Part shown: positions 15,054-37,606 of the stretch, piece after piece | How the letters are laid out: each line of letters starts with the position of its first letter | Numbering within the stretch: the stretch's first letter is position 1 | NCBI RefSeq assembly: GCF_000023285.1 | Contig: NC_013162.1 | Span: forward strand, 612,501 to 676,500 | DNA length: 64,000 nucleotides | Reading direction: 5' to 3' | DNA from: Capnocytophaga ochracea DSM 7271 | GTDB lineage: Bacteria > Bacteroidota > Bacteroidia > Flavobacteriales > Flavobacteriaceae | The notes under the pieces: generated by a model | Seen by the model: the letters and a program-made list of their open reading frames with translations, nothing else | Databases searched by the model: none | What the model was told of the DNA's origin: nothing | Position numbers and translations under genes: made by a program

Positions 15054-16178
15054 TTATTCAGCTTTGAGTTTGTCGATAGTTTCAGAAAGGCGGGTAGTAA
15101 TTTCTTCGATAGTACCTATACCATTAATCGTGTGATATTTACCTTGCGTTTGATAGAAAGTGATAAGAGGAGCTGTTTTTTCGTTATATTCAGTGAAACG
15201 GTTGCGTATTTTCTCTTCGTCTTGGTCATCAGTGCGACCACTCACTTTACCGCGCTCTACCAATCGTTTGATGAGTACCTCGTCATCAGCTTCCAAGGCA
15301 AGAGTACCGTGAATGCGCATTCCTTTGCTGTCTAAGAAAGCATCGAGGGCTTCGGCTTGTGCGATAGTACGAGGGAAGCCGTCGAAAATAAAGCCTTCGG
15401 CATTAGGGTTCTTTTCAACTTCCTCTTGTAGCATTTGTATAGTAACTTCATCGGGTACGAGGTCGCCTTTATCCATATACGATTGAGCGAGCTTGCCGAG
15501 TTTGGTTTCGTTCTTGATATTGTAGCGGAAAATATCGCCGGTAGAGATGTGTACTAAGTTGTATTTATCTTTCAAAAAAGCGGCTTGGGTGCCTTTGCCA
15601 GCTCCTGGTTTGCCGAAAAGTACTAAATTTGTCATCGTTAATGAAGTGTTTAATTGATATACTTGGGGTAAGTTACGCGCTATCTCGTCAAAATCCAATC
15701 CATAGCCCACGATAAATCGGTTAGGGATAGGTTTACCTACATAGTCTATTTTGAGGTCTTTTTTGTAGGCATCGGGTTTGAAGAATAGGGTAGCCACGCG
15801 GAAAGAGTTTACCTTTTTGTCTTCGAAAATGCGGTAAATCTCTTCTAAGGTGTTACCGGTGTCGATAATGTCTTCCAAGATTACCACATCACGTCCTTCC
15901 ACTGGGGTAGAAAGCCCAATGAGTTGGTGTATTTTTCCAGTAGACTGGGTACCCTCGTAAGATGCCATTTTTACGAATGATATTTCACATTCGCCTTTGT
16001 AGTGCCTTAGAAAGTCGGCAGCGAACATAAAAGAACCGTTGAGTATGGCGATGAAAATGGGGCGTGATTCTTGCAAATCTTGATATACCTCGCTTGCCAT
16101 TCGTTCGGCAATTTGGTTGAGTTCCTCGGCAGATACGTAAGGCTCAAAAGTCTTATCGTGTAATTTTATCAGTTCCAT
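15054..16178 (-). CDS. adk: Hypoxanthine phosphoribosyltransferase-adenylate kinase fusion
   Basis: One 374-residue open frame joins two enzymes. Residues 1 to about 175 are a purine phosphoribosyltransferase with the PRPP loop VVILEDIIDTGNTLE near 98-112 and the purine-contact VGYGLDFDE. From about residue 181 a complete short-lid adenylate kinase follows: P-loop FGKPGAGKGTQ, STGDIFR, DGFPRT and GKVSGRTDD. The linker is only about ten residues (LNTSLTMTN) and holds an internal ATG, so separate translation of the kinase is also possible. The fusion would link IMP/GMP salvage with AMP-ADP exchange. I know this arrangement from other Flavobacteriaceae. Confidence 0.93.
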   Translation of the reverse strand: MELIKLHDKTFEPYVSAEELNQIAERMASEVYQDLQESRPIFIAILNGSFMFAADFLRHYKGECEISFVKMASYEGTQSTGKIHQLIGLSTPVEGRDVVILEDIIDTGNTLEEIYRIFEDKKVNSFRVATLFFKPDAYKKDLKIDYVGKPIPNRFIVGYGLDFDEIARNLPQVYQLNTSLTMTNLVLFGKPGAGKGTQAAFLKDKYNLVHISTGDIFRYNIKNETKLGKLAQSYMDKGDLVPDEVTIQMLQEEVEKNPNAEGFIFDGFPRTIAQAEALDAFLDSKGMRIHGTLALEADDEVLIKRLVERGKVSGRTDDQDEEKIRNRFTEYNEKTAPLITFYQTQGKYHTINGIGTIEEITTRLSETIDKLKAE

Positions 16179-16389: not shown

Positions 16390-17073
16390 TTATACAAAAA
16401 TAGATTGTCCTATATCTGTTAATATCAATTCTTTGCCTTTTGCCTTAAAACTTCTCTTTGCTAAATCCTTATCATCTAACTTAATGAGGTTAAAAGTGTC
16501 GTAATGATACCCCAACACCTTGTTGCATTTCACAAAGTCCGAAGCCATAATAGCGTCTTCCACGTCCATTGTAAAGTTACCTCCAATGGGCAATATAGCT
16601 AAGTCCAATTTATAACGCACCGGTATGAGTTGCATATCAAAATACAAAGCCGTAGCCCCCGATACATATACCGTCTTTTCCAAAGTTTTAATCACAAACC
16701 CACAAGCGCACCCGCCGGCAGTGCCATTTTCGAAGGTAGAAGAATGCAACGCCGGTACCATCTTCACCGACCCAAATGAGAAACTGTACAACCCTCCCAA
16801 GTCCATAGGGTGCGAATTTTCTATTCCCAAATTAAAAAAGTAATTAGAGATTTCAAAATTCGAAATGATTTGCGCTTTCGTGCGCTTAGCTATCTGCTCC
16901 ACGTCCGATATATGGTCTTGTTGCGCCGAGGTTATCAAGATGTAATCAGCAGGAATCGTATTGATATCTATATGGCTTGCCAAAGGATTATTAGCAATAA
17001 ACGGGTCTACAAGCAAATGTGTATCGCCTATTTTGATACTCACACACGAGTGTCCGTAATAAGTTACCTCCAT
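16390..17073 (-). CDS. UPF0173-type metallo-beta-lactamase-fold protein with lost metal ligands
   Basis: A 227-residue homologue of the UPF0173 metal-dependent hydrolases (YtkL-like): MEVTYYGHSCVSIKIG, DTHLLVDPFI, then later LDLAILPIGGNFTM and LGYHYDTF. The zinc motif that normally reads THxHxDH is TSAQQDH near residues 49-55, so two histidines are replaced; the downstream GDT block reads SGATAL, losing the bridging Asp; and the usual PIGDNF is PIGGNF. The fold appears intact and the frame is open, so this is best seen as a non-catalytic or altered member, not a decayed gene. Role unknown. Confidence 0.85.
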   Translation of the reverse strand: MEVTYYGHSCVSIKIGDTHLLVDPFIANNPLASHIDINTIPADYILITSAQQDHISDVEQIAKRTKAQIISNFEISNYFFNLGIENSHPMDLGGLYSFSFGSVKMVPALHSSTFENGTAGGCACGFVIKTLEKTVYVSGATALYFDMQLIPVRYKLDLAILPIGGNFTMDVEDAIMASDFVKCNKVLGYHYDTFNLIKLDDKDLAKRSFKAKGKELILTDIGQSIFV

Positions 17074-17149: not shown

Positions 17150-18064
17150 TTAAAATATATGTATCAAAATCCCCACAAAAAAGAGTACCGAAAGCAAAAA
17201 AGTACTCAGGGCTACTATCTTTAATTCTTTATCAAGCTGTTTGAGTTCCGTATTTCGTTTTACAGTGAGCAAATGTCCTATTAAAGGCAGAAAAGCAACT
17301 AAGTACAAAAGCTCCCAGCGCATTTGCAAACGCATCACCGAAAAGCCCAACATTGCCACCATCGCCAATATAACTAAATAATAATGATAATATTTAGCCA
17401 TCGGAATTCCCATTTTCACTACCAATGTATGTTTGCCCGAACGCTTGTCGTTCTCATAATCGCGCATATTGTTTAAGTTCAGCACTGCTACACTCAGCAA
17501 GCCAATAGCTATAGCGGGCAAGCATATAACCTTATTCAAGCTCTCTGTGTATAAGAAATAACTGCCTACCACGCTCACTAACCCAAAGAACACAAACACA
17601 AATAGGTCACCCCAACCCCGATATCCATAAGCCGATTGCCCCACAGTGTACTTGATAGCCGCTACCACACACAGCACTCCTAAAACAAAAAACACCGAGA
17701 TATATAACAAATTTTCTCTTCCAAAAGCCGTATAAATAAGCACCGTAGCCGAAAATAACGACAGTAAAGCAGTGATAAGTACAACCCTCTTCATCTGCCT
17801 ACGCGTAACCCTCCCACTCTGCAAAGCTCTTGTAGGACCTATGCGGTGCTCATTGTCAGTGCCCTTTACCCCATCGCCATAATCATTGGCAAAGTTCGAA
17901 AGTACCTGAAACAAAATAGTGGTAAGCAGTGCCCAACCAAAAATCTCCCACCTAAAAGCATAAGGGTCTTCGCGAAATGCCAAAGCACTCCCCGTGATAA
18001 TCCCCGCAACCGATAAGGGTAAGGTGCGCAACCTCGCAGCTTTCAAAAGAGTTATGATATCCAT
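17150..18064 (-). CDS. menA: 1,4-dihydroxy-2-naphthoate polyprenyltransferase
   Basis: MenA attaches the isoprenoid tail to 1,4-dihydroxy-2-naphthoate, the membrane step of menaquinone synthesis. I set the start at ATG 18062-18064 (MDIITLLKAARLRTLPLS), because the conserved UbiA N-terminus begins there; the frame is open for 38 further codons upstream without family features. The 304-residue protein has eight or nine membrane helices and the Asp-rich prenyl-diphosphate motif NFANDYGDGVKGTDNEH near residue 50, and NNMRDYENDKRSGKHT as the second one. MenB, from the same pathway, lies 10 kb away. Confidence 0.93.
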   Translation of the reverse strand: MDIITLLKAARLRTLPLSVAGIITGSALAFREDPYAFRWEIFGWALLTTILFQVLSNFANDYGDGVKGTDNEHRIGPTRALQSGRVTRRQMKRVVLITALLSLFSATVLIYTAFGRENLLYISVFFVLGVLCVVAAIKYTVGQSAYGYRGWGDLFVFVFFGLVSVVGSYFLYTESLNKVICLPAIAIGLLSVAVLNLNNMRDYENDKRSGKHTLVVKMGIPMAKYYHYYLVILAMVAMLGFSVMRLQMRWELLYLVAFLPLIGHLLTVKRNTELKQLDKELKIVALSTFLLSVLFFVGILIHIF

Positions 18065-34008: not shown

Positions 34009-35174
34009 CTATTGGTTTATAAAATCTTGTTCTTCTTTGGTGAGTAAAAACTTGGCTTCACCTTGTTTATGAGGGGTAACGTATTCAAAGAAAGGTTTTT
34101 CAACCTCTATTCTGTCATTCTTTTTTATTTGTCCTTTTGTTACACCTGTACGCAAGAAAGATTGTTCTGTTTGAAGATTATCCCTTTTGTTATTATATTC
34201 AATACCTCCTTTAGCTTTTACATAAAGACTGCTAAACAATAATTTGTTCTTATAATTACTGAAAGTAATGTCTAAGGAGAAATTATCTGAGATAGATTTA
34301 AAGGGAATTTTGCTTTCCTTTGAAACATTTTCACTTACAGAACGCTTGGTATCATTAAAAACAATACGTTTCACTGCATTAGTGTGATTATCAAAATAAA
34401 TAACCGAATTAGTTAATTTAAGACTGAGCTCTTTTTTGATAACAATGTCTGCATTAAAAGTTACTTTGGTGTAATCAGCATTCTTTTCAACTTTTTTAAT
34501 TTCAATATTCTCTCCATAATATTTTATGAAAGATAGATAACTATTGGGGTAAAGAAATTGAAATAGGTTTTTAGGATCTAAAAAAGCTCCTTGCGTAGTT
34601 TTATTCTTATCATTCTTTATGTGAGAATAATCAGTATTTTTGAGTGCAACAGCCAACTGTTTATCTAATGTTTCTTGTGGGATATATAGATATTGTTTAA
34701 ACCACCAATCTAATTGTACTTGATAAAGCCGTGTAAGGGTATCATTTCTTATAAACTTTTCTCTATAAGTACATTCTAATGTTTTAGCATTAGTTTCATA
34801 GAGTTTTTTATAATTATCTAACACGTATCCTACTTGTTTTTTTAAATCAAAATTATAAATAACTACCTCATCAAGCACAATTTCTTCAGGAGTTAAATAC
34901 AGAGTGCTAAGAGAAGTGTCTTTATTTATAACTAATTTCTTTGTCGCATAACCTACACAACTTACAATTAAGCTATCTTGTATGCTAAAATCTATTTTTG
35001 CCTTACCCTCTTCATTAGTAATTGTTCCTTTTTCAAGATTAGGCAGATATAGATCACATTGCTAATAGGCTGTTTGGTTGTGTTATCCAAAACATTTATA
35101 ATCTTCTGTTGTGCAGCAAGAAATTGAAAAGAAATTAGTAGTAAAATTGTTGTTATATGTAATTTTAATTTCAT
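34009..35174 (-). pseudogene. Frameshifted carboxypeptidase-regulatory-like exported protein (paralogue 1)
   Basis: ATG 35172-35174 opens a signal peptide (MKLKLHITTILLLISFQFLAAQ) and KQPISNV, then the frame breaks. Restoring one base near 35052 gives ISNVDLYLPNLEKGTITNEEGKAKI, matching ISNVEVYYTNTLNGTITNEEG of the next gene, and the frame then runs through DEVVIYNFDLKKQVGYVLDNY to the same C-terminus GEAKFLLTKEEQDFINQ. So a single base is missing from an otherwise intact 385-residue gene. Members have an N-terminal CarboxypepD_reg-like domain and a long unknown domain. It is a recent relative of 35208-36362. Confidence 0.8.
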
Positions 35175-35207
35175 AAGTTTCTTATATTAAATGTTTAGAT
35201 ATTATGG

Positions 35208-36362
35208 CTATTGGTTTATAAAATCTTGTTCTTCTTTGGTGAGTAAAAACTTGGCTTCACCTTGTTTATGAGGGGTAATGTATTCGTGGAAAGACTTTTG
35301 AATATCTATTCTATCCTCTTTTTTAATATGTTTGTTCTGTACTCCTGTACGCAAAAAACTATGTTCCAAAAAGAGTTTATCTCTTTTTCCTTTGTATTCA
35401 ATAGCTCCTATGAGTCTTACATAATAAGAACTAAATAGTAGTTTGCCTTTATAGTCAGTTAAAGTGAGTTCCAAACGATAATTATCTGTAATAGACTTAT
35501 AAGGAACTTTAGTTTTCTCAGAAATTTTATCACTTATACCTTGATGTATGTCGTTAAAAATAACTTTTCTCACAGCATTGGTAGTATTGTCAAACACCAA
35601 TACCGAGTTTTCAAGTTTTAGATTTAGCTTTTTATTGATAACGATATCAGCGTTAAAAGTTACTTTAGTAACCTCTTTATTTTTCTCTACTTTTTTGATA
35701 TCAATATTTTCACCAAATTGATCTATAAATGACAAATAGGTGTTCACAAAAATATATATAAACATTGGTTTTCTTTCTACATAAGCAGAACGAGCCGCGA
35801 CTTCTTCTTGGCTTAACATTTTAGAGTAGTCAATATTCTTAAGTCGGATTTGTAATAGTTTTTCTAAAGGTTGCTTGAAAGAAGTATAACGATAACTTTT
35901 GCTCCACCAATCTAACTGCACTTGATAGAGGCGTGTAAGGGTATCATTTCTTATCATCTTTTCTCGATAGGTACACTCTAATATTTTAGCCTTAGTGTCA
36001 TACAATTTGAAGTAATTATCTAAAACATACTTTACTTTCTTTTTTAAATCAAAATTGTATAACACAACTTCCTCAAGTTGTATTTCCTGAGGATTGAGAT
36101 AAATGGTTGCTTTGGCAAAGGTTTTATCTGTAAAAATCTTTTTAGTTTCATAGCCTATATGGCTTAGGGTAAGGGTGTCATTCTCTATGGTAATTTTTGC
36201 CTTGCCTTCTTCGTTAGTAATAGTGCCGTTAAGCGTGTTGGTATAATACACTTCGACATTGGAAATAGCTTTATGAGTAGTAGCGTCGAATAGGGTAAGC
36301 TCAGCTACTTGGGCGTGTAAGGTAGTAGTTGTGAACAATAGGATCAAGAATAGTGTTTTCAT
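35208..36362 (-). CDS. Carboxypeptidase-regulatory-like exported protein (paralogue 2)
   Basis: A protein of 384 residues starting at ATG 36360-36362 (MKTLFLILLFTTTTLHAQ signal peptide); seven further codons upstream belong to the promoter. Residues about 20-95 are a CarboxypepD_reg-like beta-sandwich (TLFDATTHKAISNVEVYY, ITNEEGKAKITI, LSHIGYETKK), followed by EVVLYNFDLKKKVKYVLDNY and a domain of about 260 residues shared with its neighbours. The family is a conserved Bacteroidota exported type without known activity. Its -7 box is TACCTTTG on the minus strand at 36381-36388. Confidence 0.8.
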   Translation of the reverse strand: MKTLFLILLFTTTTLHAQVAELTLFDATTHKAISNVEVYYTNTLNGTITNEEGKAKITIENDTLTLSHIGYETKKIFTDKTFAKATIYLNPQEIQLEEVVLYNFDLKKKVKYVLDNYFKLYDTKAKILECTYREKMIRNDTLTRLYQVQLDWWSKSYRYTSFKQPLEKLLQIRLKNIDYSKMLSQEEVAARSAYVERKPMFIYIFVNTYLSFIDQFGENIDIKKVEKNKEVTKVTFNADIVINKKLNLKLENSVLVFDNTTNAVRKVIFNDIHQGISDKISEKTKVPYKSITDNYRLELTLTDYKGKLLFSSYYVRLIGAIEYKGKRDKLFLEHSFLRTGVQNKHIKKEDRIDIQKSFHEYITPHKQGEAKFLLTKEEQDFINQ

Positions 36363-36380
36363 TTTATTATATTTTTGCGC

Positions 36381-36388
36381 CAAAGGTA
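36381..36388 (-). promoter_or_regulatory. Candidate -7 box of paralogue 2
   Basis: Minus strand TACCTTTG followed by GCGCAAAAATATAATAAAAT up to the ATG. The same stretch precedes paralogue 3, showing that the promoter was duplicated with the gene. Confidence 0.7.
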
Positions 36389-36413
36389 GTAATAATTAGT
36401 AAATAACGTACCT

Positions 36414-37571
36414 TTAAAAATTAGAGATTACACGATATTCTTTCTGGTTATGAGCTTTATTGATAAAGTTACGCATTTCATTGGTAAGAGGCAATTGGTT
36501 TTGGGTCTCCCAAAATTCTTTGTTATAGGGCACCTCTAATTTAAACAGTTCTTTTTTACCATTTACATTGGCTTTAAAAGTACTGAGGTCTGAAAAAGGG
36601 TGGGTAACAATGAGCTCGAAACTTACATCATATACTATTCTTTCTTCGCCTACATATCCTTCTACTTTTGCGTTAACTATGGCATTGGCTATAAAATACT
36701 TGCCTTTTTTAGCATCTTTCTCAAGCTTATTTTTACAATAATAATCAATAGTTCTATACTTTATAAAAGGCTTTTTAGTATAGGGTATTTTATGAATAGT
36801 TTTAGGGTTGGTTTTATAAATACGTTCTTTAATAGCATAATCATTAGTATTGATGATAAAATATCCTATTGATTTTTGATAATCATCTTCGCTTTTAGGT
36901 GTATATTCTATCTTCTGATGTTGTTCATCTACAGTTTTAGGTCGTGAAAAATGATAGTTTTCTTGATTTAAAAATAGAATATTGCTCCACCATTGAAAAA
37001 CATCATTTAAGGAAGGGATATTAAAATCGTCTGCTCGCATACCTTTCTTTTCTATACCAAATTTACGCATATTTAGCAATTGAAAGGTGAAATTTTTCTT
37101 GGCTCCTAATAATTTATCGCGCTTGATACGCCCACTGAAATCTTCTATTTTCACGAGTTCACCATTGCGTTTGAGCACACAACGCAAAAAGAAATCTTCA
37201 ACAAAAGGTTCCATAGGATAATTGGTGCTAGCGTGATTATAGGCTTCTTGTATAATGTTTTTGTTAGAAAGGGTTACTTCGTCTAACTGAAAAGGTTTTG
37301 GGGTAAGGTACAAGGTGTCTTTTGTACGACTCAGCGCTTTGAAAGTAGTTTTGAGGGTTTCATAGCCTAACATTTTTATAGTTACGCTATCGTTGGCTGA
37401 ATAGAATACAAAAAGCCCGTCATCATTAGTGATAGTATAGTTACTTGCATTATGGATAGTAGCAGACCGTAAAGGAACTTTGGTATCTTTATCTAAAAGA
37501 TACTTTGAGGTAGTGTGCTGTGCCACTACGCATTGACTACAAACCAAAGCTATACATACAACTGCTTTCAT
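36414..37571 (-). CDS. Carboxypeptidase-regulatory-like exported protein (paralogue 3)
   Basis: A 385-residue exported protein starting at ATG 37569-37571 (MKAVVCIALVCSQCVVAQ). The N-terminal CarboxypepD_reg-like domain covers about residues 20-95 (LLDKDTKVPLRSATIHN, ITNDDGLFVFY, IKMLGYETLKT), then LYLTPKPFQLDEVTLSNKNI and a long unknown domain. It is more distant from the other two paralogues and ends differently (NKAHNQKEYRVISNF). Signal peptide and domain type indicate a periplasmic or surface location. Function unknown. Confidence 0.8.
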   Translation of the reverse strand: MKAVVCIALVCSQCVVAQHTTSKYLLDKDTKVPLRSATIHNASNYTITNDDGLFVFYSANDSVTIKMLGYETLKTTFKALSRTKDTLYLTPKPFQLDEVTLSNKNIIQEAYNHASTNYPMEPFVEDFFLRCVLKRNGELVKIEDFSGRIKRDKLLGAKKNFTFQLLNMRKFGIEKKGMRADDFNIPSLNDVFQWWSNILFLNQENYHFSRPKTVDEQHQKIEYTPKSEDDYQKSIGYFIINTNDYAIKERIYKTNPKTIHKIPYTKKPFIKYRTIDYYCKNKLEKDAKKGKYFIANAIVNAKVEGYVGEERIVYDVSFELIVTHPFSDLSTFKANVNGKKELFKLEVPYNKEFWETQNQLPLTNEMRNFINKAHNQKEYRVISNF

Positions 37572-37598
37572 ATAAATTATTTTATTATATTTTTGCGC

Positions 37599-37606
37599 CA
37601 AAGATA
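37599..37606 (-). promoter_or_regulatory. Candidate -7 box of paralogue 3
   Basis: Minus strand TATCTTTG, 28 bases before the ATG, embedded in the same sequence as at 36365-36403. Confidence 0.7.

Follow-up and report, generated by a model that had tools for sequence, protein, structure and literature searches.

A menA-linked UPF0173 protein that has lost metal ligands in 13 Capnocytophaga genomes is likely a conserved pseudoenzyme

Proteins of the UPF0173 family are present in bacteria and archaea, and we know of no settled function for them. The window analysed here, a stretch of 64,000 nucleotides from the Capnocytophaga ochracea DSM 7271 genome (a single contig of 2,612,925 bases), contains a member of this family, UPF0173-A (hereafter A), in which residues that bind metal in its relatives have been replaced. 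The locus raises the question of whether A is a gene drifting towards loss, an enzyme with altered chemistry, or a protein retained for something other than catalysis. We conclude that A, far from decaying, most likely does something useful that is not catalysis, and that it most likely formed as a pseudoenzyme in a lineage also holding an intact homologue, here called B. The coordinates of the features are given in table 1.

Table 1. Features of the menA and UPF0173-A locus, in window positions ("degenerate A" denotes the A copies that have lost ligands)
Feature	Position	Strand	Basis or state
menA (1,4-dihydroxy-2-naphthoate prenyltransferase), the gene just upstream of A	17150..18064	(-)	TIGR00751, 260 bits against a cut-off of 102
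UPF0173-A, degenerate metallo-beta-lactamase-fold protein, 227 aa	16390..17073	(-)	ORF, profile, structure matches, AlphaFold
Codon 49 (TCG, Ser), first His of HxHxDH (His48 of TM_1162)	16927..16929	(-)	Lost in 13/13 degenerate A
Codon 51 (CAA, Gln), second His of HxHxDH	16921..16923	(-)	Lost in 7/13 degenerate A
Codon 140 (GCT, Ala), GDT Asp, bridging ligand	16654..16656	(-)	Lost in 13/13 degenerate A
HxHxDH His (codon 54) and Asp (codon 53), both still present	16912..16917	(-)	Kept in 13/13 degenerate A
Codon 110, motif-3 His, retained	16744..16746	(-)	Kept in 13/13 degenerate A
Codon 190, last His, retained here	16504..16506	(-)	Asn in the six-genome pattern

The reading frame of A is open from ATG to TAA and carries the motifs TSAQQDH, SGATAL and PIGGNF. 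It scores 218.4 bits on the NCBIfam model NF001911 (cut-off 144), with a full-length alignment over profile positions 1-224 of 228, in agreement with the preliminary description of an intact frame close to the family; Pfam Lactamase_B_2 and Lactamase_B_3 also match in the domain search. The closest solved relatives are chains of TM_1162 from Thermotoga (E 1.9e-48 to 8e-47). The AlphaFold model, based on an alignment of 44 sequences, has a pLDDT of 92.8 and a pTM of 0.92, and compares with 3x2z (TM_1162, 1.6 Å) at a TM of 0.93 and 40% identity; further top structure matches are the H8A and H48A mutants of TM_1162, 7e3w, 7e3v and Igni18. In this prediction A has the metallo-beta-lactamase fold of UPF0173. 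The family match to NF001911 and the fold are common to A, TM_1162 and Igni18, but A lacks three of the seven ligands. UlaG (2wyl, 2wym) belongs to the same superfamily, with a TM of 0.76-0.80 by query length and 15-17% identity, but it is distant, A is not a member of its group, and an extract of PMC7846560 describes it as a hexamer with longer loops that binds one Mn (2WYM).

The seven ligand positions were set by alignment to TM_1162 (49, 51, 53, 54, 110, 140 and 190), and we take 49, 51 and 110 to form the first metal site and 53, 54 and 190 the second, with Asp140 bridging them. The metal ligands of UPF0173 are five histidines and two aspartates according to an extract of PMC7846560; in A, positions 49, 51 and 140 read Ser, Gln and Ala, which bears out the claim that HxHxDH and the GDT aspartate are replaced in this family member. 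PIGGNF had also been counted as a lost ligand, and this we set aside, because TM_1162 itself reads PIGGNF and the position varies among intact relatives, in which PIGSNF, PIGNNY and PIGGNF are common. The window protein still has Asp53, His54, His110, His190, His8 and Glu74. In 3X2Z, His8 and Glu73' of the neighbouring subunit lie in the second sphere of the metals, as stated in the same extract (PMC7846560). A is related to the family by descent but, judged from its sequence, is not a full metal-dependent hydrolase, and to call it a "metal-dependent hydrolase" after its family is probably a mistake. Loss of the first ligand does not unfold the protein, since the H48A mutant of TM_1162 (3x2x) keeps its fold, with a TM of 0.92 to the model of A. 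A search of the open-licence full-text literature found no report of UPF0173 members without ligands.

UPF0173 is present in all 20 Capnocytophaga genomes searched, a sample that includes C. leadbetteri, C. periodontitidis, C. sputigena, C. bilenii, C. canis, C. cynodegmi and C. felis. A occurs in 15 of them, B in 18 and both in 13; A is found alone in G002 and in G017, a draft of 89% completeness whose gaps could conceal a B, and B is found alone in G004, G007, G011, G012 and G015. Ligands have been lost from A in 13 of the 15 genomes that carry it, following two patterns. In the first, comprising seven genomes including that of the window, the motifs are x-A-[QG]-Q-D-H and G[AS]T and the last histidine is kept; in the second, comprising six, they are [SAN]AHQDH and GNT, the second histidine is kept and His190 has become Asn. 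The replacements are thus conserved in a clade, and sequencing error or a change in a single isolate is out as an explanation, the same positions being altered in 13 genomes. The first idea, that three ligands were lost at once, does not hold across the genus: positions 49 and 140 are changed in all 13 copies and position 51 in seven, while the other six have the change at His190. The A of G002 retains all ligands in the alignment, and that of G017 has them intact in both pieces of a broken gene. The latter (L046, 1044-1720), from a draft assembly, is a ligand-complete UPF0173-A with an interrupted frame, and the interruption may be an error or real.

In order to place these losses against the family, we used as reference 148 other distinct sequences (18 B, the A of G002 and 129 more), drawn from 80 of 328 loci and from two sets of 30 loci among the matches listed. 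They comprise every other gathered sequence of at least 200 aa, pieces below that length, including those of G017, being excluded, and are a sample and not the whole family. All seven ligand columns are conserved in 148/148 of these sequences, among the matches listed. Among the 28 columns that are invariant in the 148, degenerate A has changed four of the seven ligand columns and none of the 21 others (Fisher p 0.0017). Of the 66 columns conserved at the 95% level, 13 show a change in one or more degenerate copies (ligands 4/7, others 9/59, p 0.024), and those changed in six copies or more are 4/7 for ligands versus 3/59 for others (p 0.0015). As the degenerate copies share ancestry, the p-values refer to columns and not to independent events. 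Around the site, the pocket residues His8, Asp53, His54 and His110 are retained in 13/13 degenerate copies and the second-sphere Glu74 in 12/13, with Gln in G008. Position 123 is Ala in all 13, and among the matches listed it is Pro in 138/148 and Ala in 3/148 of the others.

The retained residues bear on the possibility that A is a residual enzyme. In the window protein Asp53, His54 and His190 could hold one metal, and the subclade of the window, which keeps these three together with His110, might be a mononuclear enzyme with altered chemistry. One-metal members of the fold do exist, as UlaG illustrates, and Asp53, His54 and His110 are retained in all 13 degenerate copies and His190 in seven. 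The six-genome pattern, however, lacks both His190 and His49, so that neither site is complete, and yet its omega (see below) is not above that of the seven; moreover, the bridging aspartate is absent from all 13, and the adjoining GGxP loop reads GG[CAS]A in every one. We regard a one-metal enzyme as quite unlikely.

All 13 degenerate copies are full-length with open frames, and selection on A is strongly purifying. By the Nei-Gojobori method, the C. sputigena/C. periodontitidis pair has a dN/dS of 0.025, with 43 synonymous versus 5 nonsynonymous differences, and the values are 0.018 for C. felis/G019, 0.046 for C. cynodegmi/G019 and 0.047 for the window genome and G013, the last with a dS of 1.9, near saturation. 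Two further pairs are saturated, leaving four pairs with a value. Neutral evolution can be rejected in the first three pairs (p 6e-24, 5e-9 and 3e-31, respectively), in which the dN/dS of B is 0.033, 0.064 and 0.085. Codon models, whose estimates are rough on account of long trees, put omega at 0.057 across the 13 degenerate A and at 0.047 across the B copies in those genomes; a set of 13 intact genes from Flavobacterium gives 0.021. Separated by pattern, the values are 0.057 (seven genomes) and 0.047 (six genomes) for A and 0.028 and 0.063 for B of the same genomes; in the seven, A evolves about twice as fast as B. Some relaxation of A is possible, its omega being two to three times that of the Flavobacterium genes, though B gives about the same.

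A pseudogene would be expected to have a broken frame or relaxed selection, and here all 13 frames are open and dN/dS is 0.018-0.047 in four pairs; the loss of catalytic residues throughout a clade, on a scaffold under purifying selection, is instead what characterises a pseudoenzyme. Taken by itself, and as far as sequence comparison can establish it, the assignment of A as a conserved pseudoenzyme can be made with high confidence. The preliminary description had proposed a pseudoenzyme with a conserved scaffold and a binding or regulatory role, naming clade-wide replacement and low dN/dS as the things to look for; both were found and the first part stands, while the role is something that we can only infer.

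All 13 genomes with degenerate A carry an intact B, which in the window genome is at G000:C1:2058356-2059030, and none was found in the two with ligand-intact A. Ligand loss and the presence of B therefore agree in 15/15 genomes with A, but behind this link stands a single evolutionary event, or two at the most, and the 13 genomes cannot be counted as 13 events. A rule that a second copy always leads to ligand loss was rejected, as G178 and G117 have two copies with the motifs kept in both. A profile search of the seven A-only and B-only genomes gave one UPF0173 gene in each, above the cut-off in six, the broken A of G017 appearing as two pieces below it. A match of 97 bits in G004, also below the cut-off, was discarded as, by its sequence, a different, exported metallo-beta-lactamase-fold protein, and the other sub-cut-off matches in the seven genomes are weaker.

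The presence of B is an argument for slow decay, since A could have been redundant from the arrival of B onwards and be drifting towards loss. Five species do have B and no A, which also speaks against A being needed, and no A was seen in the menA surroundings of the two of these genomes in which they were read (G007 and G004). The B-only species, however, need never have had a degenerate A, because they form a separate clade in a tree whose root was placed by choice. Each lesion pattern is common to several species, and the full-length copies, the low dN/dS and the absence of change in 21 invariant non-ligand columns are not those of a gene being lost. Slow decay is thus already largely refuted, and we consider it highly improbable. 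An intact second paralogue had been named in advance as a sign that A is decaying; the paralogue exists, but for the same reasons, including the 43:5 ratio of synonymous to nonsynonymous differences, the decay does not follow from it.

The history of B differs from that of the species. B adjoins tsaD in the window genome. Among the 20 B loci, which come from 18 genomes, this is the one at which tsaD was found, so the location of B varies. A tree of ObgE and AccD, with the root placed by choice between B-only and A genomes, sets the five B-only genomes apart from the 15 with A (100/100); within the 15, G017 branches off first, though weakly supported (81/66), and the position of G002 is not resolved. 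In the B tree, G004, a member of the B-only clade, groups with G014 and C. canis, and the B-focused tree nests it within the B of the other clade. The B proteins of G004 and G014 are 95% identical, whereas ObgE, AccD and MenA are 80%, 83% and 61% identical, respectively, and the same RND transporter gene lies beside B in both (L021 and L029). AU tests reject the grouping of the 13 B of the A clade (p 0.013) and of the five other B (p 0.0006), the groups being taken from the species tree, although a first B tree was already known when the test was made. Because the B tree conflicts with the species tree, we conclude that B moved horizontally between species.

As to origin, the large tree pairs A with B as sister groups (96/88) and gives B a long stem; B may be native to the B-only clade, may stem from a duplication at the root of the genus or may have entered from outside, and transfer may have run in either direction. 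A phage origin was discarded, the seven matches in a phage collection being uninformative: they cover stretches of 39-45% identity in unannotated records from Listeria, Enterococcus and Staphylococcus. The B of the six genomes with the second pattern fall in one group with G004 (99/99 in the B-focused tree, 87/46 in the large tree), and those of the seven with the first pattern in another (100/95 in the large tree, less resolved in the B-focused tree). Two arrivals of B would fit these two groups, but the A of C. canis groups with the seven and not the six (98/78 in the large tree, 85/50 in the B-focused tree), and the fit is suggestive only. The fuller scenario, in which a horizontally acquired B freed the menA-linked A to lose its dinuclear site by two paths, A now being a dedicated non-catalytic subunit or receptor, is tentative and on balance doubtful.

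The genomic context of A is far more constant. In the window the ORFs of menA, with its start at 18064 picked by eye, and of A are on the same strand and 76 bp apart, and A is the next gene downstream of menA for 15/15 A genes of the genus. The spacing is 42-133 bp between matched stretches in 14 of the 15 genomes; in G008 the choice of start codon decides whether the two genes abut or overlap by 4 bp. No menA was found near B in any of 18 genomes, in flanks of up to 1.5 kb. Outside the genus, searched with the MenA of the window as query, menA lies within 500 bp upstream in 23/28 family loci and in 66/72 named loci, among the loci listed, and in none of the 27 loci listed for other Bacteroidia families; a diverged menA could have escaped this search. 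Across the Flavobacteriaceae loci that were examined, UPF0173 is intact and usually linked to menA, and because this linkage is common in the family, A is by position most likely the ancestral family copy.

Two Flavobacterium loci (L104 and L095) have menA, UPF0173 and a menC-like gene on the same strand, in a span of a few kilobases; the menC-like genes score below the menC cut-offs. There is a hint here that UPF0173 serves menaquinone synthesis in Flavobacterium. The idea that it is the missing DHNA-CoA thioesterase was dropped, as the window's own genome has one TIGR00369-type hotdog thioesterase and a gap is not evident. Elsewhere in the window, 15054-16178 (-) is one ORF with phosphoribosyltransferase (18-163) and adenylate kinase (187-346) domains, an apparent HPRT-Adk fusion, and 34009-37601 (-) holds three consecutive similar ORFs, surface or carboxypeptidase-regulatory-like by eye, the first without its N-terminal part.

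Regarding function, we consider it likely that A is a conserved pseudoenzyme acting as a non-catalytic subunit or ligand-binding partner, with B supplying the chemistry. B would now provide the hydrolase activity and A would be kept for binding: it may be a non-catalytic subunit of oligomers that also contain B, or it may bind something in the context of the menaquinone genes. Candidate ligands are B subunits, a nucleotide, a menaquinone-pathway partner and one residual metal. That the partner is B in mixed oligomers is a guess, and one more probably wrong than right. Igni18 is a trimer according to an extract of PMC7846560, and A could assist B within a trimer made of both, since Glu74, the equivalent of Glu73 of TM_1162, is kept in all but one of the degenerate copies. 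A comparable arrangement is provided by INTS9 and CPSF100, in which, as in A, HxHxDH is lost, the fold is kept and an intact homologue is present in the same cell; the available part of PMC7980224 describes INTS9 as having NYHC in place of HxHxDH, which removes three of four ligands, and as pairing with the active INTS11. INTS9 and CPSF100 differ from A in being eukaryotic MBL/beta-CASP nucleases with C-terminal dimerisation domains, a group to which A, a bare fold, does not belong, but by analogy INTS9 would be its closest precedent in kind.

The main rivals to a non-catalytic subunit or binding partner are the single remaining metal in the seven-genome pattern, discussed above, and a nucleotide receptor. 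In the latter, the pocket would have become the receptor of a small molecule, for instance a cyclic nucleotide. By its entry title, 7e3w is a UPF0173 protein (C7P97_11315) deposited with cAMP, 7e3v being the same without cAMP, and both the four pocket residues retained in every degenerate copy and the constant menA neighbour are consistent with ligand sensing. A has no extra domain, however, no effector gene was identified, and a literature search found no paper on 7e3v or 7e3w; on this evidence ligand sensing is unlikely, if somewhat less so than a one-metal enzyme.

If A is indeed a conserved pseudoenzyme, Capnocytophaga would provide a natural series across one genus, with the metal site intact, lost in two ways or absent, that shows the passage of a bacterial enzyme to a pseudoenzyme. 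The genus offers comparisons between intact A alone (G002), degenerate A together with B (13 genomes) and B alone (five), and a clade whose metal site has gone while selection persists allows the reason for keeping the fold to be told apart from the role of the metals. The findings also have a bearing on annotation, as the automatic family model NF001911 still calls a protein without three ligands a metal-dependent hydrolase, and they tie UPF0173 to menaquinone genes in the Flavobacteriaceae.
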